A stretch of 64,000 nt of DNA from Amphibacillus jilinensis Y1 (lineage in GTDB: Bacteria > Bacillota > Bacilli > Bacillales > Amphibacillaceae), in the NCBI RefSeq assembly GCF_000306965.1, contig NZ_JH976440.1, forward strand, positions 85,653-149,652. The letters are read 5' to 3'. Of this stretch, positions 3,312-61,095 are shown piece after piece; the stretch's first letter is position 1, and each line of letters starts with the position of its first letter. The notes beneath the pieces are model-generated. The model saw only the letters and a list, made by a program, of their open reading frames with translations, was not told the DNA's origin and made no database searches. A program made the translations under genes and the position numbers.

Positions 3312-3500
3312 CTATAAAACAAACCTTCAACCACTGAGCGGAGGGCTGGTCATGCAGATGTTGCCACAGGACGTGGCGGTCTTAGTCTACGATCTTCCCA
3401 CCACTTGGTCGTTAAGTGAATCTCCGTTACCCCTCGCCTCAATAGATCATCGTTGCGTTCTATTTTGAGGCGGGCGTTTTACAGGCGTTTATTCGTTATT
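3312..3500 (+). repeat. Structured intergenic repeat, copy 2 (long form)
   Basis: Begins TAAAACAAACCTTCAACCACTG and carries the long-form insert in the left hairpin: CATGCAGATGTTGCCACAGG followed by ACGTGGCGG and TTAGTCTACGATCTT. It then reads AGTGAATC, TCCGTTACCCCTCGCCTC, ATTTTGAGGCGGGCG and ends near TTCGTTATTATAA. It fills most of the gap 3256-3675. The remainder holds nothing recognised. Confidence 0.75.
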
Positions 3501-3675: not shown

Positions 3676-5367
3676 TTACACTCGAAAAGTTTTCACAGCC
3701 TCTTCTAAATTCTGAGCAACCTGACTAAGCGAGCTTGCCGCAGAATGCATCTCACCAATGGCTAAATGTTGTTGATCAACGGCACTCACCACTTGTTTAG
3801 TATGTGTTAAAGCTTGATCTGTTAACTGACCAGATTGACTAGCGATATCATTTACTGATTCAATGCTCGCTGTAATTTCTTCAATGGCAGCAGAGACTTC
3901 CTCCACTTCAGCAACCACACCTTCAACGGATTGATTAATAGTGGTAAAGCTATTACCCGCTTGATCTACTAAAGCTATACCCTGATTGACTGCCTTGCGC
4001 TCTTCCTCGATTGCATCAACTGTATGGTCAACTTCTTGCTGAATTTCGTTTACTAACGTATTCACCTTATTAGCTGAACGACCTGATTGTTCGGCTAGGT
4101 GGCGGACTTCTTCTGCGACAACAGCAAAACCTTTTCCTTGTTCACCTGCTCTTGCTGCTTCAATCGCTGCATTTAAGGCTAACAAATTGGTTTGCTCGGC
4201 CAATTGATTAATTAATACAATAATGTCAGTGATCTCTTTTGATTTATAGCCTAACTTATTGACATGGTCAGCTGTTACACTTGTCTTTACATGTATGTGA
4301 TTCATCTGTTCAACGACATCTTTTATTGCACTTCCACCTTGTTGAGCATGGTGATTTGTCGTCATTGCACTATTATTGACTTGTTCGATACTACTAACAA
4401 TTTGATTCATTCCTTGAGTAATATCTTGTACAATATCAGCCACCTGATCAGATGCATCCGATTGCTGCTCAGAACCTGAAGCGACTTGATCAATGGCAGC
4501 CGAAATACTTTTTGAAGAATGATTCGTTTCTTCAGCACTCGCCAGCAATTGTTGGGAAGAAGCTGCCACTTGCTCAGATGTTTTTTGAATGTCAGCGATT
4601 AAACCAATCAAATTTTCCTTCATCTGATTAAAGCTCCGACTTAATTGGCCAATTTCATCGCCGGATCGTTCATTTATATCTGTAGTAAAATCACCACTTC
4701 CAGCTGCCTCCATTGCTGTTGCCACATGTTTCAACCTTGTCGTTACACGTTTTGTGAATGCTAATGTTACAACAACTGCAAGGACAATCACGACTGCAAG
4801 GGCAATTAAAAACCCTTGAATAGTCTTGGCAACTGTTGAATCAATTAGTGACTGGGATGCACCCACATACCACATGCCAATCACTTGATTGTTCACATCT
4901 CTAATTGGTTGGTAAGCAGTTTGATACATATGACCAGCTACATCTGCTTCACCAATATAGCGTTCTTCACGCTCTAACACGGTCTCGATCACTTGCGGTG
5001 AAGCTTTTGTACCCACCGCGCGCTCACCATCAATTGCAACATTTGTCGCCACGCGCGTATCACCTAAAAAAATTGTCACCGTCCCACCGGTCATCTCGCC
5101 AATTTGATCAACCAATTCAAAATGCCCGCTAATTTCAGTCTCTCCCTTATACAATGTCTCGTCCTCAATGTGCCATGCGCCTTGATATCTCGCTTCAATA
5201 TATTGATAGCCTAATTCCAGATCAGATTCCGCCTTTGCAATGGCTGATTCCTTAATCCCTTCACTAATCTGATAATAAGCTACACTCGCTAAACTTACAG
5301 AAACAGCCATAACCAGACAAATAACTAATCCATTTAACTTTATCCCTAAGTTTAATTTACTAATCAA
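3676..5367 (-). CDS. Methyl-accepting chemotaxis protein with Cache sensor
   Basis: A complete transmembrane chemoreceptor of 563 residues. Order: membrane helix (about 10-30), an extracytoplasmic single Cache domain with the strand [12 protein letters not shown] near its end, a second helix (about 185-205), a HAMP linker, then the coiled-coil signalling domain. The conserved hairpin tip is intact ([20 protein letters not shown] then [12 protein letters not shown]), so it can couple to CheA and CheW. The start chosen is TTG at 5367, nine bases after GGAAGG. A GTG at 5376 touches that ribosome site directly and cannot use it. The gene is monocistronic and its ligand is unknown. A second Cache receptor lies at the left edge, so sensing is a local theme. 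Confidence 0.9.
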
Positions 5368-40741: not shown

Positions 40742-41773
40742 TCACACACGTTTGTCGAGGCGTTTCGTTGAGCTTCGACAAATAATTTTGTGGGGAACGA
40801 TAATCCGTTTCGCCGGTTCATCCTGGTCTTTAACTTTCTCAATGACACATTTTGCAGCTTGAACACCAAGGTTAAATATATGAATATCTACAGTGGTAAG
40901 GCGTGGTCTAGTCATTTCAGATAGATATAAATTATTAAAACCGGTAATGGAAATGTTCTCTGGACAAGATATCCCTATTTCATCTAGCATGTTAATCACA
41001 CCAAAGCTCAAGATGTCATCGGCAATCACCATAGCAGTAGGAGGATTTCTTAATGAAAACAATTGTTTCACCGCTTTTCGCTCCCCTGAGTTCAAACATT
41101 CTACATGAACGATGTATTCGGGTGATGTTGGTAAAGTCGCAAGTTTTAACGCTTGTTTGTATCCGTGAAGTCGATCACCAGTAACAGCTATGTCAATGGA
41201 ACTACCAATAAAAGCAATATATTGATGTCCTAAATCAATGAGATGGTTAGTGATATCTTTGCTTGCCGTTATATTATCATTATCAACATAAGTCATTTTG
41301 CACTCATCTATAGATGGTTTTCCGACTAAGACAAAAGGAAAATTTGCAGTCATCAGAAAATCGATCACCGGATCAGCTTCACAGGAAGAAAGTAATATGA
41401 TGCCATCGACCTGATGACCATAAACCATTCGTTTAACTTCTTTGCATGATTGTTGCACATCCCCACCAATAGATAAATAAAGTGAATACCCTGCTTGATG
41501 CATTAAAGAACCTACGCCACGTAATAATTCACTGAAAAAAGGATGCTGAAAAATAGTTTCAGTAATTGTAGGCATGACCACACCAATTGCTTGTGTAGCG
41601 CGGACAACTAAGCTTCTTGCATTGATATTTGGATGGTAGCCTAACTGTTTCATCGCTTTTTGGACACGCTTTTTAGTGTCTAAACTAATCCTTGAACGAT
41701 CAGCAATGACATGAGAAACAGTAGACGGAGAAACATTTGCTTTCTTCGCAACATCTTTAATCGTTACAGCCAT
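40742..41773 (-). CDS. malR: LacI-family regulator, probably of the maltodextrin genes
   Basis: A 343-residue LacI-type repressor. The helix-turn-helix TIKDVAKKANVSPSTVSHVI is followed by the hinge NINARSLVVRATQAIGVVMP and a periplasmic-binding-like sensor domain. It lies downstream of and in the same direction as the MdxEFG importer, 245 bases from its last gene, with repeat copy 9 between. Control of the dextrin genes, through CGCAAGCG-type operators found before mdxE and the amylase gene, is inference from position. The start is ATG at 41773 after AGAGGATG; a TTG at 41779 is less likely. Confidence 0.8.
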   Translation of the reverse strand: MAVTIKDVAKKANVSPSTVSHVIADRSRISLDTKKRVQKAMKQLGYHPNINARSLVVRATQAIGVVMPTITETIFQHPFFSELLRGVGSLMHQAGYSLYLSIGGDVQQSCKEVKRMVYGHQVDGIILLSSCEADPVIDFLMTANFPFVLVGKPSIDECKMTYVDNDNITASKDITNHLIDLGHQYIAFIGSSIDIAVTGDRLHGYKQALKLATLPTSPEYIVHVECLNSGERKAVKQLFSLRNPPTAMVIADDILSFGVINMLDEIGISCPENISITGFNNLYLSEMTRPRLTTVDIHIFNLGVQAAKCVIEKVKDQDEPAKRIIVPHKIICRSSTKRLDKRV

Positions 41774-41817
41774 AAACAAGTCATCCTCTAAATACTTCGT
41801 TCATTATGATTTTTTTA

Positions 41818-42019: not shown

Positions 42020-42859
42020 TTAACCTTTCGTTCCACCAGCAGTTAAGCCTGATATTAAATACCTTTGTAAATACAAATAGACAGCCGCTACAGGAATAGC
42101 AACTAAGATTGATCCAGCAGCAAATCTTGTAAAGTTATTAGCAAACTGATCGTTAATAAAATTGAATAATCCAACTGCAAGTGTATAATTTTCCTTGCTT
42201 GATAGAACAATAGATGGCAACAAAAAATCAAAAAGTGGCATCATAAAATTAAAGAGTGCAACAACCGCTAATATCGGTTTAGCAAGCGGAAGAACGATAC
42301 TCCAAAAAACTCTAAGATGCCCAGCGCCATCAATGCGTGCAGCCTCATCAAGTTCGCGCGGGATCGTATCAATGTAGCCCTTGACTAACCAAGCATTAAA
42401 AGGAATCTGTCCACCAAGATAAACAAATATCAATCCAGTTAGCGTATCTAGCATTCCTATCATATTTAAGAATACATACAATGCAACCATAGCCATCATA
42501 ACTGGGAACATCTGCAGCAATAGAAAGATATAAAGTGCGTTCTTTTTACCTACAAATTGATATCTAGAAAAAGCATACGCAACTAACGATGTTATAATCA
42601 CACTGCCAACCGTTACTGACACCGAAACAATTAAAGAATTTTTGTACCATAGCAAATAATCACTATTTATACTAAATAACCATCTATAATGATCCAAAGA
42701 AAAATTTTCTGGAATGATAGAAGATGAATATAAGCTCGTACCCTGATTAAAGGACATCCCGATCGTCCAAATAAGCGGATAAAAAATAGCAATAGAAGTA
42801 ATGGTTATAAACAGATACATAATTGACACTTCTACTATTGAGGTCTTTTTGGGATTCAC
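42020..42859 (-). CDS. mdxG: Maltodextrin ABC permease MdxG/MalG
   Basis: A 279-residue permease with six helices. The EAA loop reads DEAARIDGAGHLRVFWSIVL, and the C-terminus RYLISGLTAGGTKG is the classical MalG ending, which contacts the binding protein or substrate in MalFGK2. GTG at 42859 is the start. It overlaps the last base of the mdxF stop (TAGTG), so the two are translationally coupled. Third gene of mdxEFG. No dedicated ATPase is nearby; a shared MsmX-type ATPase elsewhere is expected, as in Bacillus. Confidence 0.93.
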   Translation of the reverse strand: MNPKKTSIVEVSIMYLFITITSIAIFYPLIWTIGMSFNQGTSLYSSSIIPENFSLDHYRWLFSINSDYLLWYKNSLIVSVSVTVGSVIITSLVAYAFSRYQFVGKKNALYIFLLLQMFPVMMAMVALYVFLNMIGMLDTLTGLIFVYLGGQIPFNAWLVKGYIDTIPRELDEAARIDGAGHLRVFWSIVLPLAKPILAVVALFNFMMPLFDFLLPSIVLSSKENYTLAVGLFNFINDQFANNFTRFAAGSILVAIPVAAVYLYLQRYLISGLTAGGTKG

Positions 42860-44160
42860 TATAATTCACCTTCTTCTTTAAAGGATTTGGTTTGTCTAAA
42901 TTGATAAAAAGCAAAGCATGAGATGATCATCCCCATAATCAGGGAGATGGCCGCAGCCATAGCATAATTATTCGTATCAAAGGTCAACTTATAAACCCAT
43001 GAAATTAAAATATCGGTTCCCCCTGCATTTTGCCCTCTCACCGGAGGTCCACCTTCATTAAACAAGTAGATTATGTTAAAGTTATTAAAGTTTTGCGCAT
43101 ATTGCATTATGAGTAATGGCGCCGTAGCAAACAAAACATGTGGAAGAGTAATGAATCGGAATTTCTGAAAACGCGATCCACCATCGACATCAGCCGCTTC
43201 GTACCAATCTTTAGAAATGCTTTGGAGCACCCCTGTAAATAGAGCAAAAATAAAGGGAAAACCTAACCATGTTTGAATTAAAATAACTGCTGTTCTTGCA
43301 TAGAGTGGATCACTTAACCAAGGTATCCCATCTCCACCGAACAGCGGAATGATAATATCTCTGTTAATAGCACCGAAATCATCATTAAACATGGCTGAAA
43401 AGATTAAAATCGTAACAAACGCAGGGACAGCCCAAGGCAGAATTAAAATTGTGCGAATAAGTTTTTTGAATTTTATTCTCGGGTCATTAACCATTAATGC
43501 CAAAGTCATTCCTAAGGCGATCTGTAATGTGGTTGCTACGATTGTCCATACAACCGTCCATGATAAAACACTCACAAACGTATCCTGCCAAATGGGAACA
43601 GTAACTAATTCTTTAAAATTTCCAATCCCTATCCAATCTACTAGACTTCTTGGTGGCGAAGTATAAAGACTGTAGTTAGTGAATGCTAACAGCACAGAAA
43701 AAAGCAATGGGAAGATGACGACAAAAATCATCAGTAACAACCCTGGAAATGTCATTAAATAAGGAAATGAATGATCATAAAAGCTGATAATTGACGCTTT
43801 AAATCCTTTTGGAAGGCAACCCGCTTTAATTTGTCTCGCTTGATTTCTTGCGTCTATTACATTAAAGACATACAGCGTTATCAACATAACACTCCCAATT
43901 AGCGACAAAACACCAAAAACGAGTAATCTTATCGAATGATCTTCGCCAGGAATTGTACCTAACGTTCGTAATCCCCAAAGTCCATAGTTAAGCGAATCAA
44001 TGAGTGTGATTAAAATAACCACTTCTAATAAAATAAAAATGATCCCTTTCAGAAATCTTCGATTGTAAAGCTGACCTAACCCTGCAAATACAATAGACAG
44101 TACAGTCGCAATGTTTGGATTATGTCTGTCCGCCCTTTTATTTGTTAATGTATTATCCAT
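42859..44160 (-). CDS. mdxF: Maltodextrin ABC permease MdxF/MalF
   Basis: A 433-residue permease, the size of Bacillus MdxF. An N-terminal extra region (about 15-140) has three helices, with GLGQLYNRRFLKGIIFILLE. The transport core follows, with the EAA loop YEAADVDGGSRFQKFRFITL. GGPPVRGQNAGGTDILISW near the C-terminal end is typical of MalF in maltose systems. It is second in the operon, 231 bases after mdxE with repeat copy 10 between, so the repeat is transcribed within this operon. AGGGAG precedes the ATG. Confidence 0.93.
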   Translation of the reverse strand: MDNTLTNKRADRHNPNIATVLSIVFAGLGQLYNRRFLKGIIFILLEVVILITLIDSLNYGLWGLRTLGTIPGEDHSIRLLVFGVLSLIGSVMLITLYVFNVIDARNQARQIKAGCLPKGFKASIISFYDHSFPYLMTFPGLLLMIFVVIFPLLFSVLLAFTNYSLYTSPPRSLVDWIGIGNFKELVTVPIWQDTFVSVLSWTVVWTIVATTLQIALGMTLALMVNDPRIKFKKLIRTILILPWAVPAFVTILIFSAMFNDDFGAINRDIIIPLFGGDGIPWLSDPLYARTAVILIQTWLGFPFIFALFTGVLQSISKDWYEAADVDGGSRFQKFRFITLPHVLFATAPLLIMQYAQNFNNFNIIYLFNEGGPPVRGQNAGGTDILISWVYKLTFDTNNYAMAAAISLIMGMIISCFAFYQFRQTKSFKEEGEL

Positions 44161-44390: not shown

Positions 44391-45674
44391 TTACTGGGCA
44401 CCACTTGCTTCTATGTTATTATGAATGTGTTCTACTGCTTCATCTAAAACAGAGGAAACATCCTCGCCTTCAGCTAAAAATTGTAACGCATTATTCATAG
44501 GTTCCCATACTTGAGACATTTGTGGCGTACTAGGCATAGGCACACCGTTAGCAATCTGCTCACTAAATGCAGCGAAAATCGGATCTTCAATGGCTTCTAG
44601 CGCATTTCTATTAGTCGGTAATTCTCCAGCTATTTCAGAATAGTATTCTTGATTTTCTTGATTAGTCATAAACAATGCAAGATCAGTGGCCCATGCTACA
44701 TTTTCAGAATAATAGGATACCATCCACGCTTTTGTCCCTACTAATGTTTGGGCAGGTTGACCATTAATGTCTGGAAATGGCGCAAAACCAAGGCTATCAC
44801 CTAATGCTGCTGTATAACTCGGAATACTCCATGGCCCATTAATTACAGCGCCAACTTTACCTTCAGTAAACAACCCATCAATAACATCGATAGTAGTAGA
44901 TGACGGTATTCTACCTCTCTCAAAAAAGGATTGGAATAATTCCCCGCCCTCAATGGCTCCTTCATTATTAAGACCAATATCTGTCGTATCATAATCACCT
45001 GGTTCTCCCCCAAAGATATAGGACCCATGTGTTCTGAAGAAAGGGTAAGCAAAGTATATATCATCTGGTTTCATCAGAAATCCAAATTGATCTTGCGACG
45101 GGTCAGTATGTTCATCTAGCGCTACTAATAAATCATCAATGGTTTGGGGTTCATCAATGATATCTTTGTTATAAAAGATTCCATAGGTTTCAATAACAGC
45201 CGGAATACCATAAATATCGTTAACACCATTAAATTCATATTGAACCGACTCAATAGACGCCGAGCTATATTTATCTAATTGCTCATCTGTTAAATCTAGG
45301 GGGTGAGATAATCCTTGAGCGACAATATCCCCTGTCTGATTATGAGGTTGAAAGAATAAATCGGGTCCATGACCTTCAGGCCCAGCTAAAGCTAATTCAG
45401 ACAACTGTTCTAACATTGATTTTGCCACGACATTAACTTTAATGCCTTGCTCTTCTTCATAATCTAAAGCAATTTTTTCTATAGCTTCTAATTGTTCTTC
45501 TTCATCATTGGCCCAGACCGTTAACTCTTCAGGTTTGTTCACTTCCTCACCATCTGTATTTTCTGAATTAGAATCGACATTGGTAGGATCATCTCTGTCA
45601 GGAGAACATGCACCTAATGTCAATAGTGCCACTAATAATGTGATCAAAAAAATAAGCATACTTTTATTTCTCAT
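44391..45674 (-). CDS. mdxE: Maltodextrin-binding lipoprotein MdxE/MalE
   Basis: A 427-residue lipoprotein with lipobox LTLGAC and an acidic linker. The family-1 binding fold shows LTVWANDEEEQLEAIEKIAL, GPDLFFQPHNQTG, YGIPAVIETYGIFYNKD, GAVINGPWSIPSY and AQTLVGTKAWMVSYYSEN, all close to MalE/MdxE. The start is ATG at 45674 after AAAAGGAG; the frame to 45683 is not needed. It is the first gene of mdxEFG. Its transcript has a long leader with a terminator-like hairpin, and a cre overlaps the -35 box. Confidence 0.93.
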   Translation of the reverse strand: MRNKSMLIFLITLLVALLTLGACSPDRDDPTNVDSNSENTDGEEVNKPEELTVWANDEEEQLEAIEKIALDYEEEQGIKVNVVAKSMLEQLSELALAGPEGHGPDLFFQPHNQTGDIVAQGLSHPLDLTDEQLDKYSSASIESVQYEFNGVNDIYGIPAVIETYGIFYNKDIIDEPQTIDDLLVALDEHTDPSQDQFGFLMKPDDIYFAYPFFRTHGSYIFGGEPGDYDTTDIGLNNEGAIEGGELFQSFFERGRIPSSTTIDVIDGLFTEGKVGAVINGPWSIPSYTAALGDSLGFAPFPDINGQPAQTLVGTKAWMVSYYSENVAWATDLALFMTNQENQEYYSEIAGELPTNRNALEAIEDPIFAAFSEQIANGVPMPSTPQMSQVWEPMNNALQFLAEGEDVSSVLDEAVEHIHNNIEASGAQ

Positions 45675-45698
45675 AATAACCACTCCTTTTTATTTTTG

Positions 45699-45712
45699 CG
45701 CAAGCGCTACCA
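45699..45712 (-). promoter_or_regulatory. cre or MalR-type operator in the mdxE leader
   Basis: CGCAAGCGCTACCA fits the cre consensus at 12 of 14 positions and shares the CGCAAGCG core with the operator before the amylase gene. It lies 25 bases upstream of the mdxE ATG, inside the transcribed leader, where bound repressor would act as a roadblock. Confidence 0.55.
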
Positions 45713-45752
45713 TTTAAATCTTTAGTCTAAAGTAAAACAACCCTCCTTCCCC

Positions 45753-45829
45753 AAAAAAACAACCCCGACTTTTTATAAAAAAAGCCGGGGTTGTTTGCAA
45801 TAATCGCAAAAGCAGCGCCCTCAATTTGA
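45753..45829 (-). promoter_or_regulatory. Leader element with terminator-like hairpin before mdxE
   Basis: A block of about 77 nt nearly identical to the leader at 46553-46628 of the divergent glucanotransferase gene. It starts CAAATTGAGGGCGCTGC, passes TTTGCGATTATTGCAAA and ends in a hairpin (45757-45796) in which AAACAACCCCGGCTTTTT pairs with AAAAAGTCGGGGTTGTTT, followed by a T run. It lies after the promoter and before the gene, in the sense orientation, as an attenuator would. Confidence 0.7.
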
Positions 45830-45858
45830 GAATTGAGTAATAACTAGGTTGTGCCATC

Positions 45859-45896
45859 ATTTTATATAATAAAATTAATTTATGCAAGCGTTTTTT
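45859..45896 (-). promoter_or_regulatory. mdxEFG promoter with overlapping cre
   Basis: On the minus strand TTGCAT (45887-45882), a 17-bp spacer and TAAAAT (45864-45859). TGCAAGCGTTTTTT at 45883-45896, a cre-like or MalR-like site, covers the -35 region. The transcript would start near 45852, giving a leader of about 180 nt. Confidence 0.65.
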
Positions 45897-45924
45897 CGAA
45901 ATAAAATTTTAAAACATGAAACAC

Positions 45925-46068
45925 ATCTTCAATCCGTCGGCGGTTTCGTTATTCGCCCACTGATTGGTAGCTGAGTGGATCAGAACATTAGCTCCCACCT
46001 AATTAGATTTACTCTACTCTCCATTTTGTGAAGGACGTTTTACGGATGGTACTCTGCGCTAAATTAAA
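45925..46068 (+). repeat. Structured intergenic repeat, copy 11
   Basis: CTTCAATCCGTCGGCGG, CGCCCACTGATTGG, TGAGTGGATCAGAACATTAG, CTCCCACCTAATTAGA, then TTTTACGGATGGT. The ACGTCCGTT segment is deleted. It lies in the divergent mdxE/glucanotransferase gap, upstream of both promoters. Confidence 0.7.
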
Positions 46069-46201
46069 CCTCATACTTCATTTAGTCAGATTATATTAAA
46101 AGCGTGACGAAATTATGTATCGAGCCATCATTCATCATGGATTAATTCATAATCAATAGTGAATAGGCTTAGCTTTGCTACTGCTTCCTAATACCAAAGC
46201 T

Positions 46202-46403
46202 AATAAAACGAACCTTCATGTGCGAAGAGCTACAGGATGTAAGTCATGCAGACGTTGCCACAGGACGTGCGGTTTTAGTCTATGGTCTTACTGATTGTTG
46301 CGTGGGTCAGGACCTTAACGTCCGTTATCACCTACCGATAGGATTTACCTCCGTTCTCGATTTTGAAGTGGGTATCTTATGGACAGTGATCTGTGATAAC
46401 AAA
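46202..46403 (+). repeat. Structured intergenic repeat, copy 12 (long form)
   Basis: Begins AATAAAACGAACCTTCATG. The long-form insert has two loop hairpins: CTAC-AGGA-TGTAAG, then CATGCAGACGTTGCCACAGG with ACGTGCGG and TTTTAGTCTATG. TCAGGACCTTAACGTCCGTT, a weak second hairpin and TTATGGACAGTGATCTGTGA follow, and it ends TAACAAAAG. Confidence 0.75.
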
Positions 46404-46492
46404 AGCAAAAATCCCCCTCGCCCAATTTTTTGGATTGCAATCGATTTCGTCAAAATATACCACTGCTCTTTTAAATTAATCTTTAATAGTTA

Positions 46493-46521
46493 TTGACATT
46501 GTCAATTGATCTTGTAATAAT
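46493..46521 (+). promoter_or_regulatory. Promoter of the glucanotransferase gene
   Basis: TTGACA (46493-46498) and AATAAT (46516-46521) are 17 bp apart. GACATTGTCAATTG just after the -35 includes a TTGACA/TGTCAA inverted pair that could be an operator. The leader would be about 160 nt long. Confidence 0.7.
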
Positions 46522-46552
46522 GAGAGTAACAACCTTGTGATAACTTAATTTG

Positions 46553-46628
46553 CAAATTGAGGGCGCTGCTTTTGCGATTATTGCAAACAACCCCGGCTTT
46601 TTTTATAAAAAGTCGGGGTTGTTTTTTT
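46553..46628 (+). promoter_or_regulatory. Leader element with terminator-like hairpin before the glucanotransferase gene
   Basis: Same element as at 45753-45829, in the sense direction. The hairpin 46585-46624 has an 18-bp stem with one G-U pair and a 4-nt loop, followed by eight T (46622-46629). A run-through is needed to express the gene. An upstream imperfect palindrome TTTGC-GATTATT-GCAAA ends inside the left arm of the hairpin (GCAAA overlaps AAACAACC), so the two structures compete. Confidence 0.7.
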
Positions 46629-46645
46629 TGAGAAAGGAGGATCGT

Positions 46646-46696
46646 TTGTCGTTCAACATATTTCAAAAATTGAAGGGTTGTGAACAATATGCTTAA
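46646..46696 (+). CDS. Possible 16-residue leader peptide overlapping the glucanotransferase start
   Basis: After the hairpin the best ribosome site of the transcript, AAAGGAGG (46633-46640), is five bases from a TTG that opens a frame [16 protein letters not shown] ending at TAA 46694-46696, in a different frame from the enzyme. It overlaps the enzyme's ATG at 46689. Translational coupling is possible. The frame is short and could be chance. Confidence 0.3.
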
Positions 46697-48806
46697 TAAA
46701 TTTTTTCTAAAAATGAAAGCGATTGCGTTTGTCGGTATTGTATTTGTGGTTTTTTTAGCGTTAGCAAATGATGTGTATGCCGCTAGCCAACTAAATAAAG
46801 TGAATTATTCCAAAGATACCATTTATCAAATTGTGACAGATCGATTCCTTGACGGTGATCCTTCTAATAACCCTGATGGCGCATTGTATAGCGAAACAGA
46901 TTTGCATAAATACATGGGAGGTGATTGGAAAGGGATAACAGAAAAGATAGAAGATCATTACTTTACTGATCTAGGGATTACTGCATTATGGATTTCCCAG
47001 CCTGTTGAGAATGTTTATGCTGTTCACCCTGAAGGCTATACCTCTTACCATGGTTATTGGGCTAGAGACTATAAAAAAACCAATCCATTCTATGGAAGCT
47101 TTAATGACTTTGATGAGTTAATATCTACGGCGCACAGCCATGGCATTAAAATAATCATGGATTTTACACCCAATCACTCTTCACCAGCCTTGAAAACGGA
47201 TAGTGATTATGTAGAAAACGGAGCTATTTATGACAATGGATCATTAATTGGTAATTACTCAAATGATATGGATTTATTCCATCATAACGGTGGTACGGAT
47301 TTTTCATCTTATGAAGATGGTATTTATCGAAATCTATATGATCTAGCTGATTATGATTTACAAAATCAAACCATCGATCAATACCTTAAAGAATCGATAG
47401 AGTTGTGGCTAGACAAAGGTATTGATGGCATAAGAGTGGATGCCGTAAAGCATATGTCACAGGGCTGGCAAGAAACCCTAACCAATCACATTTATTCCTA
47501 TCAACCTGTCTTTACATTCGGTGAATGGTTTTTAGGTGAAAATGAAATCGATCCAAGAAATCACTATTTTGCCAATGAGAGTGGTATGAGTTTGCTAGAC
47601 TTTCAATTTGGCCAACAAATTAGAGGCGTACTTATGTCTAAAGAAGATGATTGGACCGATTTTCATACGATGATTGAAGATACATCCAATAGCTATAACG
47701 AAGTCATTGATCAAGTCACATTTATTGATAATCATGATATGAGCAGATTCCATAAAGAAGATCGTGCGAAGACCAATACAGATATAGCCTTGGCTGTCCT
47801 ACTTACCTCTCGCGGGGTGCCAACGATTTATTATGGCACAGAACACTATTTAACAGGTGAATCTGATCCAGAAAACAGGAAGCCAATGCCCAGTTTTGAT
47901 CGAACAACAACAGCTTATCAAATAATAAGTAACTTAGCACATTTGCGTCAATCAAACCCAGCTTTAGGTTATGGTACAACAACAGAACGTTGGCTTAATG
48001 AAGACGTCTATATATTTGAGAGAAAATTTGGTGACAATGTCGTGGTTACTGCTGTAAATAGTGGTGAGCAAAGTTACACCATTAATAATCTTCAGACATC
48101 ATTATTAGAAGGTACCCATCCCGATGTATTAGAAGGTTTAATGGGTGGGGATGCTCTTCAGATAGATGAAAAAGGGCAAGCCAGCACGTTTGAATTAAAA
48201 GCAAATGAAGTAGCAGTTTGGGAAGTAACCGCCGAATCAAACGCACCATTAATTGGTCATGTCGGCCCAATGGTGGGGCAAGCTGGAAATGAAATTACGA
48301 TAAGCGGCGAAGGCTTTGGCGAAGGACAAGGCACAGTACTGTTCGGCAGTGATCAAGCTAGTATTGTATCTTGGGGAGATTCAGAAATAGTAGTCAATGT
48401 TCCTGATATACCAGGTAATCACTATAACATTGAAGTCGTAACAAATGGTAATAAGGAAAGTAACCCTTACTCAGACTTTGAGATCTTAACAAATAAATTA
48501 ATACCTGTTCGGTTTATCGTTGAAGAGGCCGTAACTGATTACGGTACGTCTGTATATCTTGTTGGTAATACACAAGAGCTAGGGAACTGGGATACAGATA
48601 AAGCAATTGGGCCATTTTTCAATCAAATAATAGCGCAATATCCAACATGGTACTACGATATAAGTGTTCCGGCTGATTATACACTGGAATACAAATTTAT
48701 TAAGAAAGATGCGCTTGGAAATGTAGTTTGGGAGAGTGGGACTAATCGCTCCTACGATACGCCAACTGATGGGACAGATACGTTAACTTCAACATGGAGA
48801 AATTAA
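46689..48806 (+). CDS. Secreted cyclodextrin glucanotransferase (GH13, CGTase type)
   Basis: A 705-residue exported enzyme with the five-domain CGTase plan: signal peptide ending near DVYA, catalytic barrel A with domain B, domain C, an IPT/TIG domain D ([20 protein letters not shown]) and a C-terminal CBM20 starch-binding domain E (VPVRF-like start, [13 protein letters not shown]). Catalytic residues are present: Asp in [12 protein letters not shown], Glu in FTFGEWFLG and Asp in [12 protein letters not shown]. The central aromatic Tyr of CGTases is kept in YRNLYDLAD. The following LNHNN loop reads YDLQN, and the domain B loop after PVENVY is shorter than in classical CGTases, so the ring size or hydrolysis ratio may differ. 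The ATG at 46689 follows a weak GAAGGG. The next gene is a cyclomaltodextrinase. Confidence 0.88.
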
Positions 48807-48836
48807 ATCTAATCTAGAGGCAATGTTTGAATAACT

Positions 48837-48869
48837 AAACAACCCCATTAACTATTAATGGGGTTGTTT
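48837..48869 (+). promoter_or_regulatory. AACAACCCC-type hairpin between glucanotransferase and cyclomaltodextrinase
   Basis: AAACAACCCCATTAA-CTA-TTAATGGGGTTGTTT is a perfect 15-bp stem, 24 bases before the next start. The outer ten pairs equal those of the two leader hairpins at 45757 and 46585; the inner part differs. It could end the first transcript partly or set the ratio of the two enzymes. Confidence 0.75.
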
Positions 48870-48892
48870 AATGGAGAAAAGGAGAATGTAAT

Positions 48893-50650
48893 TTGTTAAT
48901 GGAAGGTATTAAACATAGAGCTATTCAGCCATATGTTTATGGCAAAAATGAAAATGAAATTCAAATCATGCTAGAAACAAGTCGAGATGATATGAAAACA
49001 GTTGAATTGATATTTGGTGACCCTTATGACTTTGTAGAAGATAAATGGCAATATCATACGTTACCCTTGCTTAAAACAGGTAAATCAAAAATAAAAGACT
49101 ATTGGAAACTAACCCTTACACCAAAACATCGAAGGCTTCGCTATGGTTTTCGATGCATCGATCAACATAACCAAGTCGTGATTGTGACAGAAAAAGGCTA
49201 TCATACTGAAATAACGAATAATATACAGAGCTATTTCTGCTTCCCTTATTTACACAAAAAAGATATATTTCAAGCGCCAGAATGGGTAAAGGAAACAGTA
49301 TGGTATCAAATATTCCCTGAACGATTTGCAAATGGTGATGCTTCAACAAATCCGGAGCATACGTTACCATGGGGTTCAATCACGCCTAAACAAGATAGTT
49401 ACTTTGGGGGAGATTTTCAAGGGATTATCAATCACCTCGACTATTTACAAAAACTCGGTATTACAGGCATATATTTATGTCCAATTTTCAAAGCAGCTTC
49501 TAATCATAAGTATGATACGATTGATTACATGGAGATTGATCCACAATTTGGTGATAAATCCACTTTTCGAGAGCTCGTTAAGCAATGTCACCAACGAGGT
49601 ATTCGCGTCATGCTTGATGCGGTATTCAATCATAGCGGCTATTATTTTGAACCTTTTCAAGATGTTCTGAAAAATGGGGAAGCGTCGCCATATAAGGAAT
49701 GGTTTCACATATGGGACTTCCCCGTGCAAACAAAGCCCTCGCCTAATTATGATTGTTTTGGTTTTGTATCAAACATGCCAAAATTGAACACTGAAAATCC
49801 CGAAGTAAAAAACTATTTACTTGAGGTTGCACGCTATTGGATTGAAGCATTTGATATTGATGGTTGGCGTTTAGATGTAGCCAATGAAGTTGATCATAAC
49901 TTCTGGCGCGACTTCCGAAGCGTGGTTAAATCAGTCAAACCAGATGCTTATATATTAGGGGAAGTTTGGCATGACGCCCTGCCATGGCTAGAGGGAGATC
50001 AATTTGACGCAGTAATGAATTACCCATTTACAACAAGTGTGATTGATTTTTTTGCTAAAGACAAGATAACGACCACTCAATTCGCTAACCAGATCACAGA
50101 TCTATTGCACATGTATCCAGAGCCTGTAAGTGAAGTAGCTTTTAACTTGTTAGATAGTCATGACACCGCACGTATCCTAACATTGGCAAACGAAGATGAA
50201 GAACGGATGCGCTTAATATATGTTTTTCTCTTCTCTTTTATTGGCACACCATGCATCTATTACGGTGATGAAATAGGGTTAAGTGGTGGCGAAGAACCCG
50301 ATTGCCGGAAGTGCATGGAATGGGATGAGACCAAACAAGATCAACAACTATTTCAGTTTATTCAACAGTTAATAACCATGCGAAAAGAAATAGCAGCGTT
50401 TGGTAATTTAAGCACTTTTCGTTTTCTACAAATAAACGATCAAGAAAAAGTCATTGCTTATGAGAAGCAAAAAAAGCAAGAAAAAGTTATTATTGTTTTA
50501 AACAATGATTCAAAAGCTAAAACGATAGCTGTAGCGGCGTTGAATGGGAAACGTGTAAAAGAATGCTTTTCCGGAAATGAAATGACTTTTGGAGCAAATG
50601 CAACAGTTAAACTTGCACCATTTGGTTTTACTTGTTTTCAATTACATTAA
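48893..50650 (+). CDS. Cytoplasmic cyclomaltodextrinase / neopullulanase (GH13_20)
   Basis: A 585-residue enzyme with no signal peptide. An N-terminal CBM34 domain (about 1-125) that forms the dimer active-site lid is followed by the GH13 barrel: VWYQIFPERFANGD, the calcium-region YDTIDYMEIDPQFG, VMLDAVFNHSG, nucleophile Asp in IDGWRLDVANEVDH, acid Glu in YILGEVWHD, and Asp in NLLDSHDTAR. Members open cyclodextrins and cut pullulan to panose. Placed after a CGTase gene, it should open imported cyclodextrins inside the cell. The start is TTG at 48893, eight bases after AAAGGAG; the ATG at 48899 is 14 bases away. Repeat copy 13 follows. Confidence 0.9.
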   Translation: MLMEGIKHRAIQPYVYGKNENEIQIMLETSRDDMKTVELIFGDPYDFVEDKWQYHTLPLLKTGKSKIKDYWKLTLTPKHRRLRYGFRCIDQHNQVVIVTEKGYHTEITNNIQSYFCFPYLHKKDIFQAPEWVKETVWYQIFPERFANGDASTNPEHTLPWGSITPKQDSYFGGDFQGIINHLDYLQKLGITGIYLCPIFKAASNHKYDTIDYMEIDPQFGDKSTFRELVKQCHQRGIRVMLDAVFNHSGYYFEPFQDVLKNGEASPYKEWFHIWDFPVQTKPSPNYDCFGFVSNMPKLNTENPEVKNYLLEVARYWIEAFDIDGWRLDVANEVDHNFWRDFRSVVKSVKPDAYILGEVWHDALPWLEGDQFDAVMNYPFTTSVIDFFAKDKITTTQFANQITDLLHMYPEPVSEVAFNLLDSHDTARILTLANEDEERMRLIYVFLFSFIGTPCIYYGDEIGLSGGEEPDCRKCMEWDETKQDQQLFQFIQQLITMRKEIAAFGNLSTFRFLQINDQEKVIAYEKQKKQEKVIIVLNNDSKAKTIAVAALNGKRVKECFSGNEMTFGANATVKLAPFGFTCFQLH

Positions 50651-53148: not shown

Positions 53149-54867
53149 TTAGTTATTAAAATTAAAATGGATATCATTATCCCTATCTTCTACAGTGTAG
53201 GTCCGATTAGCACCGCTCTCCCAAACAACATTATTACCGTTTCTTTTGATTGCTTTATACTCAAATGTTGTCCCAATAGGCAACTGAACAGTAGCTTGCC
53301 AACTTGGATAGGTGGTAATATTGGCTAGTAGCGCCGCAGTCGGCTCCCAACTACCAAGCTCAGCAATATTACCGGCAATATAAACATTTTGCCCCCAATT
53401 CGTTGTTGCTTGATTGATATGAAAAGTAACGGGGACAAGTTCATTGCCTGGGTCACTCCCTCCATTATCTTGACCATCATATAAAACGGCAACACTTCCG
53501 CTACCTATCGTTCCAGTGATTCTGCCGTTCGAGACCGTAAAGCTTTCATTACCACTCGCTTGATTGATATAAGTGCCATCTGATAAATTAGTCGTAGCAT
53601 TTAATTCCGTGCGACTACCAAGATTGACAATAGTCATACCATCTTGTCCACGTTCAATAAACATGATGTCATTACTCATCGGTCTTAAATATTCACTTGT
53701 GTCGGCCATCGCCTGGCGAAAATGATTAACAGCGACAACATCCGGATGCTTCCACCAATCATTTCCCGCTTGACCTAGTTGATTGGAAAACTTACCACTT
53801 CCTGCTGGACGATTAAAATAAAGTGGCGTTGATTCAGCGCGACTTGCAATCAGTGCCCATCCCATTCTCAGTTGCCACTCACTCATCGCCGTGGATTCCT
53901 CTGAATCATTGGCATAGGTATCGTGAGATTCAACCCACGTCACCAGTTTATCCGGATCAACATTCACACCGTAATCCTGCATGTCACGAACATTTGGATT
54001 ACTATTAAAACCAACTGCATGTCTCACCCGATCACCATAGTGGGAAGGGGTAACACCCATATATTCGGCATAGCTTGAGAATCGGTCAGCCCCACCTTGA
54101 AGAACTTCTCCATAAATAAAAAGCGCTTCCTTATTATTTAGTGCCCCTAGTACACGAGGCCAGAAGTTCGATCCTACTTGATCATCCGGCAATTCAATAT
54201 GCTTAGCTGCATCAAAACGAAAACCAGCTGCTCCTAATTCAATTGCATCATTTAAGAAGTCAATCACCTTGTCTTGTAATTCTTGATTGGCTGTATTGAG
54301 ATCAGGTAATCCAATCCCCCAATGTGTCACTTGATAACGATTATTCCAATCTTGGACTCCCCTTGGCTCTCTCCAAAAATCAGGGTTATTTAAAATAATC
54401 GGATCGACATTTGGACTTGGTGTATACTGCAGAGATCCACCACCAGCGTTAGCCATGTGGTTGGGAATAACGTCGACAATAATATCAATACCATATGATT
54501 CCGCAGCTTCACAGAGCTGTTTAAATGCTTCTCTGTCACCTAATTGTGTATTACCAATCTCAAAATTAATCGGTTGATAAAGAATCCACCATTGGCTACC
54601 TGCCATCAACGGTTCCTTATTAGCTTGGATTGGTGACGTTTGGATTCGATTAAACCCAGCATCTGCAATATCCGCTAAGTGGGTTCTAATGGTATCAAAA
54701 GACCAATTCCACGCATGGAAAATTGCACTATCATCTGTATCTATCAATTGATTCGTTTCAACACTTGTTTCAGATTGGGCAAGAACGGGTGCAGACATAC
54801 GCCATCCAAGACCTAAAAAAACAAAGATAACACCAAGACAAAACAGTAACTTTAAATTTTTCCTCAT
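53149..54867 (-). CDS. Secreted alpha-amylase with CBM20 starch-binding domain
   Basis: A 572-residue exported enzyme. A signal peptide (about 1-28) is followed by a GH13 barrel of the B. subtilis AmyE type: AIFHAWNWSFDTIRTHLADI, NRIQTSPIQANKEP, DIIVDVIPNHMAN, nucleophile Asp in AAGFRFDAAKHIELP, acid Glu in LFIYGEVLQGG and Asp in VTWVESHDTYAND. A C domain and then a CBM20 (VPVTFHINQATTNWGQNVYI, IAELGSWEP) bind raw starch. The ATG at 54867, eight bases after AAAGGAG, is chosen; the frame to 54984 crosses the operator. Its CBM20 closely resembles that of the glucanotransferase. A CGCAA-N5-TTGCG operator and a cre lie upstream. Confidence 0.93.
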   Translation of the reverse strand: MRKNLKLLFCLGVIFVFLGLGWRMSAPVLAQSETSVETNQLIDTDDSAIFHAWNWSFDTIRTHLADIADAGFNRIQTSPIQANKEPLMAGSQWWILYQPINFEIGNTQLGDREAFKQLCEAAESYGIDIIVDVIPNHMANAGGGSLQYTPSPNVDPIILNNPDFWREPRGVQDWNNRYQVTHWGIGLPDLNTANQELQDKVIDFLNDAIELGAAGFRFDAAKHIELPDDQVGSNFWPRVLGALNNKEALFIYGEVLQGGADRFSSYAEYMGVTPSHYGDRVRHAVGFNSNPNVRDMQDYGVNVDPDKLVTWVESHDTYANDSEESTAMSEWQLRMGWALIASRAESTPLYFNRPAGSGKFSNQLGQAGNDWWKHPDVVAVNHFRQAMADTSEYLRPMSNDIMFIERGQDGMTIVNLGSRTELNATTNLSDGTYINQASGNESFTVSNGRITGTIGSGSVAVLYDGQDNGGSDPGNELVPVTFHINQATTNWGQNVYIAGNIAELGSWEPTAALLANITTYPSWQATVQLPIGTTFEYKAIKRNGNNVVWESGANRTYTVEDRDNDIHFNFNN

Positions 54868-54947
54868 CAGTTGCACTCCTTTTTTTAAAAAATATGAGAA
54901 CATTACAACTTTTTTATTTGTTTTGACTGTAGCATTTATTTGTTTTT

Positions 54948-55083
54948 CGCAATACGCTTGCGCTTTAATTTCACCTCCATCCATTAAAGTAAAGTGTTGT
55001 CAAAATTAACCCTTGTTGAATGATTAATTTTCATCCTTTACACAACACTGTCCTGCTCTCTCTTTTTAGTGCAAGCGTTTTCA
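54948..55083 (-). promoter_or_regulatory. MalR-type operator and cre before the amylase gene
   Basis: On the minus strand CGCAAGCGTATTGCG (54948-54962) has CGCAA/TTGCG arms, like the MalR operator CGCAAACGTTTGCG of streptococci. TGCAAGCGTTTTCA at 55070-55083 matches the cre consensus at 13 of 14 positions, and its first ten bases recur in the mdxE promoter. The amylase and importer are thus likely under the same repressors. The remainder of 54868-55432 holds repeat copy 14. Confidence 0.65.
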
Positions 55084-57079: not shown

Positions 57080-57300
57080 TCTTTATAAAATGAAACTTCA
57101 GTCAGTGGGCGGAGAGCTACTGGAAGTAGACCATGTAGACGTGGGCACAGGACGTGGCGTCCTTAGTCTGTAACCCATCTTAAAGATTTGGCAGTTTTAG
57201 TCTACGAAGGCATTAGCGTTCGTTAGTTCCCACTTCAATAGATTTACCTCTGTTATCTATTTTGAGGTAGGTTTTTTACAGACGGTTATTCTGTGATGAA
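57080..57300 (+). repeat. Structured intergenic repeat, copy 15 (long form)
   Basis: AAAATGAAACTTCAGTCAGT, GGGCGGAGAGCTACTGGAAG, the insert CATGTAGACGTGGGCACAGG with ACGTGGCG and CTTAGTCTG, a second GCAGTTTTAGTCTACGAAGG, then GCGTTCGTTAGTTCCCAC, ATTTTGAGGTAGG and TTTTACAGACGGTTATTCTG. TGATGAA ends it. The right end overlaps the last codons and stop of the DinB gene. It fills the gap 56933-57285. Confidence 0.75.
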
Positions 57301-60919: not shown

Positions 60920-61095
60920 AAACGAACCTTCAATCAGTAGAGGACGTAGGTCATGCAGACATTGCCACAGGACGTGGCGGTTTTAGTCTGCGATCTTACC
61001 CTCCTACTGATTGGGCTTTTAGTGAATCAGAACATTGGTGCCCATTAGCTCCCTATTTTGAGGTGAGCGACTTATGGACGGTAATCTCGCTAAGT
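60920..61095 (+). repeat. Structured intergenic repeat, copy 16 (long form)
   Basis: TATAAACGAACCTTCAATCA, GTAGAGG, then the insert GTCATGCAGACATTGCCACA with GGACGTGGCGG and TTAGTCTGCGATCTT. The left stem closes with CCTCCTACTGATTG: its CAATCAGTAG/CTACTGATTG arms are changed together from the usual CAATCAGTGG/CCACTGATTG. TTAGTGAATCAGAACATTGG and a shortened second hairpin follow. Confidence 0.8.

Follow-up and report, generated by a model that had tools for sequence, protein, structure and literature searches.

A family of attenuator-like leader RNAs with a predicted antiterminator at starch and maltodextrin genes of the Bacillaceae and Paenibacillaceae

The leaders of the mdxE-like and CGTase-like genes of Amphibacillus jilinensis Y1 belong to a widespread RNA family of the Bacillaceae and Paenibacillaceae. 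Computation found two structures with one common arm, covariation, proximity to promoters and a conserved gene context. These RNAs probably act by conditional transcription termination, in which a signal would stabilise a small antiterminator hairpin, whose internal loop is asymmetric and conserved, and so open the terminator. The strongest result is the covariation of bases 17 and 49, a pair of the predicted antiterminator that had been missed in an earlier note made from the letters of this DNA. The window analysed here is the whole stretch of 64,000 nucleotides (contig NZ_JH976440.1, positions 85,653 to 149,652 of the forward strand).

Leader copies and genes of the locus

The leaders on the mdxE side and on the CGTase-like side are nearly identical (Table 1). 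The earlier note had described them as a duplicated divergent block of about 76 nt, which was borne out, the block being longer: the inverted pair extends over 119 nt (45734-45852 against 46529-46647) with 88% complementarity, and the core is identical in both copies. When the repeat block was compared with its own genome by BLAST, these 2 places and their antisense reading were found, and none besides. Each copy does end in the 18-bp hairpin followed by seven or eight T that had been reported; the stem is 94% complementary, and the terminator of each copy has an energy of -26 kcal/mol compared with -7.0 in shuffles (z -7.6). A good promoter had been claimed on both sides. The plus copy has such a site, with TTGACA at 46493, a 17-nt spacer and AATAAT ending at 46521, and its repeated block starts 8 nt past the -10 box of this strong promoter-like site. 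The claim failed for the minus copy, where the promoter scan reported no site above its threshold; by eye, TTGCAT-17-TAAAAT is seen there, with 8/12 matches and under that threshold.

Table 1. Coordinates of the leader RNAs, their predicted structures and the neighbouring genes (window positions)
Feature	Position	Strand	Basis
Leader RNA copy 1	45753-45835	-	R2 83.3 bits, E 5.7e-16; inverted repeat; upstream of mdxE
Leader RNA copy 2	46546-46628	+	R2 84.2 bits, E 3.7e-16; inverted repeat; upstream of CGTase-like gene
Leader RNA copy 3, diverged	48803-48873	+	R2 37.4 bits, E 1.6e-5; own-genome E 9.2e-5
Intrinsic terminator, copy 1	45753-45796	-	Stem 45757-45796 and T run; absent from the list of the pattern scan
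Intrinsic terminator, copy 2	46585-46629	+	18-bp stem 46585-46624 and T run
Predicted antiterminator hairpin, copy 2	46561-46593	+	MFE of truncated leader; covariation
Predicted antiterminator, copy 2, lower pairs	GGG 46561-46563 : CCC 46591-46593; UG 46567-46568 : CA 46588-46589	+	
Predicted antiterminator, copy 2, top	CU bulge 46569-46570; TTTGC 46571-46575 : GCAAA 46583-46587	+	
Sigma-A-type promoter-like site, CGTase-like gene	46493-46521	+	11/12 matches; TG before second hexamer
mdxE-like binding protein (maltodextrin-binding-protein-like)	44391-45683	-	NCBIfam MalE and GanS models, below cut-off
Alpha-amylase/CGTase-like gene	46680-48806	+	Pfam Alpha-amylase, TIG, CBM20
Neopullulanase/cyclomaltodextrinase-like gene	48893-50650	+	Pfam Alpha-amylase_N, Alpha-amylase, Malt_amylase_C
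LacI-type regulator gene	40742-41779		After the mdxG-like ORF; Pfam LacI

A third copy, overlooked in the earlier note, lies between the CGTase-like and neopullulanase genes, and its terminator has an energy of -21.3 kcal/mol. The earlier gene calls, an mdxE-like binding protein and a glucanotransferase, agree with the Pfam matches and, for mdxE, with NCBIfam matches below the cut-off; the neopullulanase gene is an addition. The domain order Alpha-amylase, TIG, CBM20 is presumably the CGTase layout. The open reading frames 42859-44160 and 42020-42859 come after the mdxE-like gene and were taken as mdxF and mdxG from the earlier note. A second amylase-like gene was seen at 53149-54984 on the minus strand, of which residues 517-597 are 41% alike to the CGTase-like gene of locus L058; a search for the leader at this gene with covariance model R2 (described below), in the window and in its own genome, found no copy.

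Control at the DNA level may be layered on the leader RNA at mdxE, where positions 45694-45711 and 45882-45898, near the mdxE start and promoter, hold putative CcpA/MdxR-like operator sequences. Such sequences were also seen by eye near mdxE in relatives. Other elements of the intergenic DNA were recorded as well. GGAGG occurs shortly after each terminator (46636-46640 plus, 45742-45746 minus), inside the repeated block and about 40-60 nt ahead of the listed start codons. A hairpin, CTYAATT..AATTGAG, that precedes the core in the window was not conserved in the relatives read.

Two mutually exclusive structures and a covarying pair

The family core consists of RAGGGCNMUG, a bulge, a variable stem, CAACCCC and the terminator. 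As in an attenuator, two mutually exclusive structures are predicted, one of them a terminator, and they share the CAACCCC arm. The competing element named in the earlier note, TTTGC-GATTATT-GCAAA, is present and overlaps the left arm of the terminator by its AAA. It is incomplete as a competing structure, since it makes up the top only of a larger hairpin to which the UG:CA and GGG:CCC pairs also belong.

Covariation was evaluated on an alignment of 43 sequences (A3). In this alignment, 90.9% of cells are paired compared with 74.6% in shuffles, a value reached by 0/500 shuffles, and double changes occupy 153 cells compared with 54.7, again with none of the 500 shuffles reaching 153. Changes on both sides were found in 7 of the 9 pairs of the upper helix and 7 of the 14 pairs of the terminator; the resulting number of pairs changed on both sides (14 vs. 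11.9) is only mildly unusual, being reached by 19/500 shuffles. Sliding the partner columns by 1-3 positions dropped pairing to 41-58%. The selection pattern of A3 fixes AGGGCRMTG, AACAACCCC and GGGGTT, and the invariance of those columns, including the six AACCCC:GGGGUU pairs, is by construction. Pairing in the upper stem persists despite variation in its sequence and length (mean 5.7 pairs vs. 2.6 in shuffles, 72 cores); the shuffles used here and for the promoter statistics preserve mononucleotide content only.

For the truncated leader, the minimum free energy fold was the antiterminator hairpin, both in the two window copies tested and in an example of either subtype; the free fold of these window copies has GGG:CCC shifted by one base. 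The energy of the antiterminator fold was -7.5 kcal/mol when constrained (first copy only) and -8.0 kcal/mol when free. The whole plus leader folds into other upstream pairings, not into the antiterminator. Over 124 cores, the pairing probability P(G18:C48) had a median of 0.61 and a mean of 0.50, compared with a mean of 0.33 when the loop was shuffled, and it exceeded 0.5 in 68 cores compared with 40 after shuffling of the loop. Among 143 parsed copies, C20 was found in 139, and position 22 was A in 109 and C in 34, counts biased in that direction by the parse, in which UG is fixed and a score of 4 out of 7 points over RA, GGG, C20 and M22 is required. Three of 146 rows were unparsed, and two of the 143 (L168, L209) were mis-parsed at the right end; with these two set aside, the pairs 18:48 and 19:47 showed no variation among the parsed copies. 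The sole antiterminator pair tested by covariation is 17:49.

Base 17 opens the GGG and base 49 lies in CAACCCC; only in the antiterminator do the two pair. Patterns in which base 17 was left free (A or G) and G18, G19, C20, M22 and UG were fixed were searched in 388 Paenibacillaceae genomes. Terminators of the form CAACCUC:GAGGUUG gave 102 matches in 88 genomes, with A17 in 101 and G17 in 1 (G850), and those of the form CAACCCC:GGGGUUG gave 121 matches in 96 genomes, with G17 in 120 and A17 in 1 (G782); both sets contain many closely related genomes and their matches do not count as independent, 31 of the 102 A17-U49 cases coming from one genus (g111). The G782 exception looks like an ordinary terminator. 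The counts were made by eye from listings whose row totals are consistent with the 88 and 96 genomes tallied, one row (G874) being read from locus L237, and the backward-pattern controls gave 2 and 0 matches. One locus (L160) has G17 with U49, a wobble. The third window copy carries AGAGGC (A17) with CCCC, so that its lowest antiterminator pair is mismatched, and the A. cookii orthologue has the same A17 with C49. Both subtypes occur in a single genome (G498): L161 is of the first kind, and of two divergent A17-U49 copies one precedes a neopullulanase gene.

Distribution, promoters and target genes

The leader block was searched in relatives, a check suggested in the earlier note, and was found before CGTase-like and/or neopullulanase genes. 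BLAST of 61 genomes showed that several genera carry this leader at the corresponding locus; a weak match (L031) was left out because it has no core. At locus L026 a second copy (5148-5225) separates the two genes within their operon, with no promoter obvious by eye. A pattern scan of 84,980 species genomes returned 72 stretches, 61 of them in the class Bacilli, and the 11 others, outside this class and with no related gene downstream, were set aside as chance.

Covariance model R2, built from the 43 sequences of A3, identified the element in 46/398 genomes of the class at E<=1e-4 (the lowest-scoring of these possibly by chance) and in 161/394 Paenibacillaceae genomes at E<=1e-5. It was preferred to an earlier model (R1), which has a spurious RNAalifold helix and weak matches (98/159 genomes, E<=0.01) that include antisense readings of terminators. 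Two of the 394 genomes, G833 and G835, had the most matches (9 and 11 at E<=0.01, antisense included), their copies being scattered across several contigs. Besides antisense readings, the remaining matches in the A. jilinensis genome were weak (C2:115348, E 0.03 with R2; C6:85148, E 1.5e-4 with R1 only).

Promoter scores were determined for the 123 unique instances with enough upstream DNA. A score of at least 10 was reached by 76 of them compared with 4.4 in shuffles, and a score of at least 9 by 97 compared with 28.1; among these 97, the -10 box ends a median of 31 nt upstream of the core. It follows from the scores and this spacing that most copies are probably near transcript starts.

After removal of antisense matches overlapping better ones, rows without a relaxed core and exact duplicates, 178 unique instances were obtained; many come from closely related genomes, and they do not count as independent. 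Sense orientation ahead of an assigned gene was found in 174, each target being categorised by its best tblastn match among 16 reference proteins. Starch or maltodextrin genes follow 127 instances (70 amy/CGTase, 44 neopullulanase, 8 mdxE, 3 CBM21 protein and 2 pullulanase). The other 51 comprise 15 before an esterase gene, 32 before other genes (25 AAC(3)-like acetyltransferase, 2 DUF7948-like, 2 ABC ATPase, 2 MFS and 1 lipoprotein) and 4 without an assigned gene, 2 of which lie at the edge of the retrieved sequence. Seven of the 15 esterase cases have a CGTase leader adjoining divergently, the same arrangement as in the window; at L144 about 110 nt separate the esterase-side and CGTase-side elements.

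The A17-U49 subtype stands before neopullulanase genes at 24 of 30 loci and before an mdxE-like gene at 1. In 8 genomes it precedes a nucleotidyltransferase-like protein of 256-279 aa (L276, L282, L284, L308, L312, L314, L315 and L319); three of the eight proteins were scanned and the other five recognised by eye. The Pfam scan of these three gave no match, the NCBIfam scan of two gave weak, below-cut-off similarity to lincosamide nucleotidyltransferases, and one PDB match was found (E 0.0018). The AAC(3)-like proteins belong to PF02522, with E-values of about 1e-83 to 1e-84 for L111, L125 and L210, the three that were scanned, and their nearest solved relatives are FrbF and the aminoglycoside N3-acetyltransferase/YokD group. 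Further AAC(3)-like loci of the Paenibacillaceae (L115, L143, L156, L162, L207 and L213) were assigned by sequence likeness. Copies with long terminator loops were seen in G833 and G835 (L201, L221, L222); they precede 804-aa DUF7948-like proteins (L201 weak, below cut-off) and also a lipoprotein-like protein of 175 aa that has no Pfam match. At L090 (6899-6972 minus) and its twin L166 the element points antisense into a regulator gene and has no gene immediately after it. There it follows a neopullulanase-like gene and faces a LacI-type gene of convergent orientation, beyond which mdxE-like DNA is found, an exception to the leader position.

The window and 16 element-bearing loci were scanned against Rfam 15, and no family reached its gathering score at the element. 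Weak overlaps were given by bglG-cis-reg (RF03530, 22.8 bits, cut-off 80) and ncr1175 (RF02450, 26.6 bits, cut-off 60), and the leader is a member of neither. The only family above its gathering score in the window was Bacillaceae-1 (RF01690), away from the leader element. It has four copies, at 46229-46294 minus, 3331-3401, 57116-57182 and 60927-61002 minus, the first lying between the divergent leaders. The literature search, which covered titles and abstracts, found no description of the leader, in agreement with the earlier remark that no such attenuator had been described. Term searches of the main texts of three RNA-discovery papers (PMC11109978, PMC8632094, PMC6429828) found no mention of starch or maltodextrin targets or of Paenibacillus, the one match being a mention of Bacillus in a reference list, and a Paenibacillus transcriptome paper (PMC5670726) does not mention cyclodextrin, amylase, aminoglycoside or maltodextrin.

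Proposed mechanism and candidate signals

During transcription, the leader RNA would decide whether RNA polymerase halts or continues. The nascent RNA would form the antiterminator, composed of three GGG:CCC pairs, an internal loop (5' CNM, 3' A), two UG:CA pairs and, above them, a bulge of 1-2 nt and an upper stem that varies in both sequence and length. The CAACCCC stretch used in this hairpin would also be the left arm of the far stronger terminator. Since the terminator has -26 kcal/mol and the antiterminator -7.5 to -9.2 kcal/mol, the switch would be OFF by default unless the earlier-formed antiterminator is stabilised, and a weak antiterminator without a binder could act only kinetically; these energetics therefore point to an ON switch that needs a binder. 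With no signal, the terminator would win and transcription would end ahead of the gene. Binding of a signal, most likely to the conserved internal loop, would stabilise the antiterminator and allow transcription to go on, and the conserved bases C20 and position 22 are the likely binding site. We infer, then, a conditional switch whose signal turns the genes ON and whose sensor is the internal loop. With three copies, importer (mdxEFG), CGTase-like enzyme and neopullulanase would all answer to one common signal.

Joint control of importer and enzyme by conditional termination, as proposed in the earlier note, fits these results. Its competing structures gain support from covariation, promoter proximity and linked genes, its drawing of them was incomplete, and the neopullulanase gene now joins the set. 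Maltodextrin and cyclodextrin are candidate signals, and the signal may be other than maltodextrin because the targets in the Paenibacillaceae include AAC(3)-like, nucleotidyltransferase-like and other genes.

The signal could be a small molecule bound by the RNA or it could be an RNA-binding protein, which we rate about equal. That the RNA is itself a riboswitch, the internal loop of the antiterminator being a compact aptamer for a sugar, a sugar phosphate, an aminosugar-like compound or a general metabolite, is a serious possibility just short of even. Conservation of the loop bases, as counted by a parse that favours them, is consistent with an aptamer, as is the single layout shared by two subtypes that differ in helix bases and bulge length. 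No RNA-binding regulator gene was seen beside the leaders in the loci read, in an unsystematic look. The aptamer would, however, be very small, no single ligand is indicated by the target genes, and a general RNA-binding protein would yield the same pattern. We know of no natural riboswitch for a neutral sugar. A narrower form of this reading, in which the RNA senses a carbohydrate-like ligand directly, either a maltose-type sugar or an aminocyclitol or aminosugar pseudo-oligosaccharide such as a natural amylase inhibitor, is rather unlikely.

Compact aptamers that overlap a terminator do exist. The HMP-PP (thiS motif) riboswitch is very compact, its sensing part overlaps the terminator and HMP-PP is reported to suppress termination (PMC6478431, excerpt); the leader resembles it in compactness and in the overlap of its presumed sensing part with the terminator. 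The HMP-PP aptamer, in contrast, is almost wholly inside the terminator stem, whereas the sensor hairpin of the leader would be upstream with the left arm alone in common, and the targets are unrelated. The AAC(3)-like copies also recall the leaders of integron aac/aad genes, RNA leaders before genes of the aminoglycoside-modifying type for which an aminoglycoside riboswitch has been claimed (PMC7588185, excerpt) and disputed (PMC9410878, excerpt). The organisms differ, however, the main targets of the present leader are starch genes, and the two are likened by description, not by sequence.

About as plausible as a riboswitch is an RNA-binding protein, of neither the BglG/LicT nor the ANTAR type, that binds the antiterminator hairpin. 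Ribonucleic antiterminators bound by BglG/SacY have internal loops. The size of the hairpin and its overlap with the left arm of the terminator resemble these elements (PMC9981650, excerpt). The protein reading has no candidate gene, however, and the copies in G833 and G835 are scattered over several contigs. ANTAR proteins as the obligatory partner were rejected, as none was found in 14 of 19 motif-bearing genomes, G000 and G001 among them; G032, G506, G577, G833 and G835 have one each, and 0/14 control genomes gave a match.

The possibility was considered that the hairpin is a constitutive partial terminator or a feature of mRNA ends that sets expression ratios. Internal terminators can set the stoichiometry of ABC importers in clostridia (PMC9045158, excerpt), and some copies do lie between operon genes, as at L026 and in the third window copy. 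Most copies are, however, just below promoter-like sites, and this reading does not explain why RAGGGCNMUG is conserved outside the terminator, why the second hairpin covaries, or why base 17 covaries with the terminator arm. It is judged improbable.

A RAT element bound by a PTS-controlled antiterminator of the BglG/LicT/GlcT type would follow the same logic. In RAT, a short hairpin overlaps the left arm of the terminator, the two structures are mutually exclusive and the genes serve sugar utilisation (PMC9981650, excerpt), all of which the leader has in common. Three CAT_RBD genes are found in the genome of the window, and 50/61 motif-bearing genomes have at least one. The domain is missing, however, from the other 11, G833 and G835 among them, which contradicts BglG/LicT proteins as the obligatory partner unless a diverged domain was missed; in a smaller survey it was missing from 1/20 motif-bearing genomes (G091, also in the larger survey) and 1/8 motif-less genomes. 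The several scattered targets and the score against bglG-cis-reg also argue against a RAT, and the conserved core is unlike the RAT consensus. Identity with RAT is thus given very little credence. By analogy, the leader appears to work like a RAT or a compact terminator-overlapping riboswitch, and it is filed as neither.

Leader-peptide attenuation from a conserved AUG, present within GGGCNAUG in 109/143 parsed copies, is equally hard to credit, in that the alternative base C (34/143; patterns and parse favoured A or C) gives CUG, not GUG or UUG, and the many lengths of the distance to the terminator break any common frame. A DNA operator or dispersed repeat, suggested by the near-palindromic TTTGC-N7-GCAAA and the LacI-type regulator gene in the locus, is next to negligible, as the palindrome varies in sequence and length across cores while pairing is kept, nearly all instances (174/178) are in sense orientation ahead of an assigned gene, and the three sense copies of the own genome are all in one locus, the rest being antisense or at two weak places.

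Conditional termination by these leaders would thus be the work of a conserved regulatory RNA family of the Bacillaceae and Paenibacillaceae that is absent from Rfam 15 and sits on industrially used kinds of starch enzymes, CGTase and neopullulanase. Its mixed targets, starch genes and antibiotic-modification-like genes, link two fields and could reveal the roles of AAC(3)-like and related enzyme families in Paenibacillus. If it is true that the RNA binds a sugar itself, a gap in the known riboswitch ligands would be filled, and a carbohydrate-ligand riboswitch would, to our knowledge, be the first natural one for a neutral or pseudo-sugar. A sensor of pseudo-oligosaccharides, if true, would switch on extra amylolytic enzymes together with modifying and efflux functions, namely the AAC(3)-like acetyltransferase, the nucleotidyltransferase-like protein, the MFS protein and the DrrA-like ABC ATPase.
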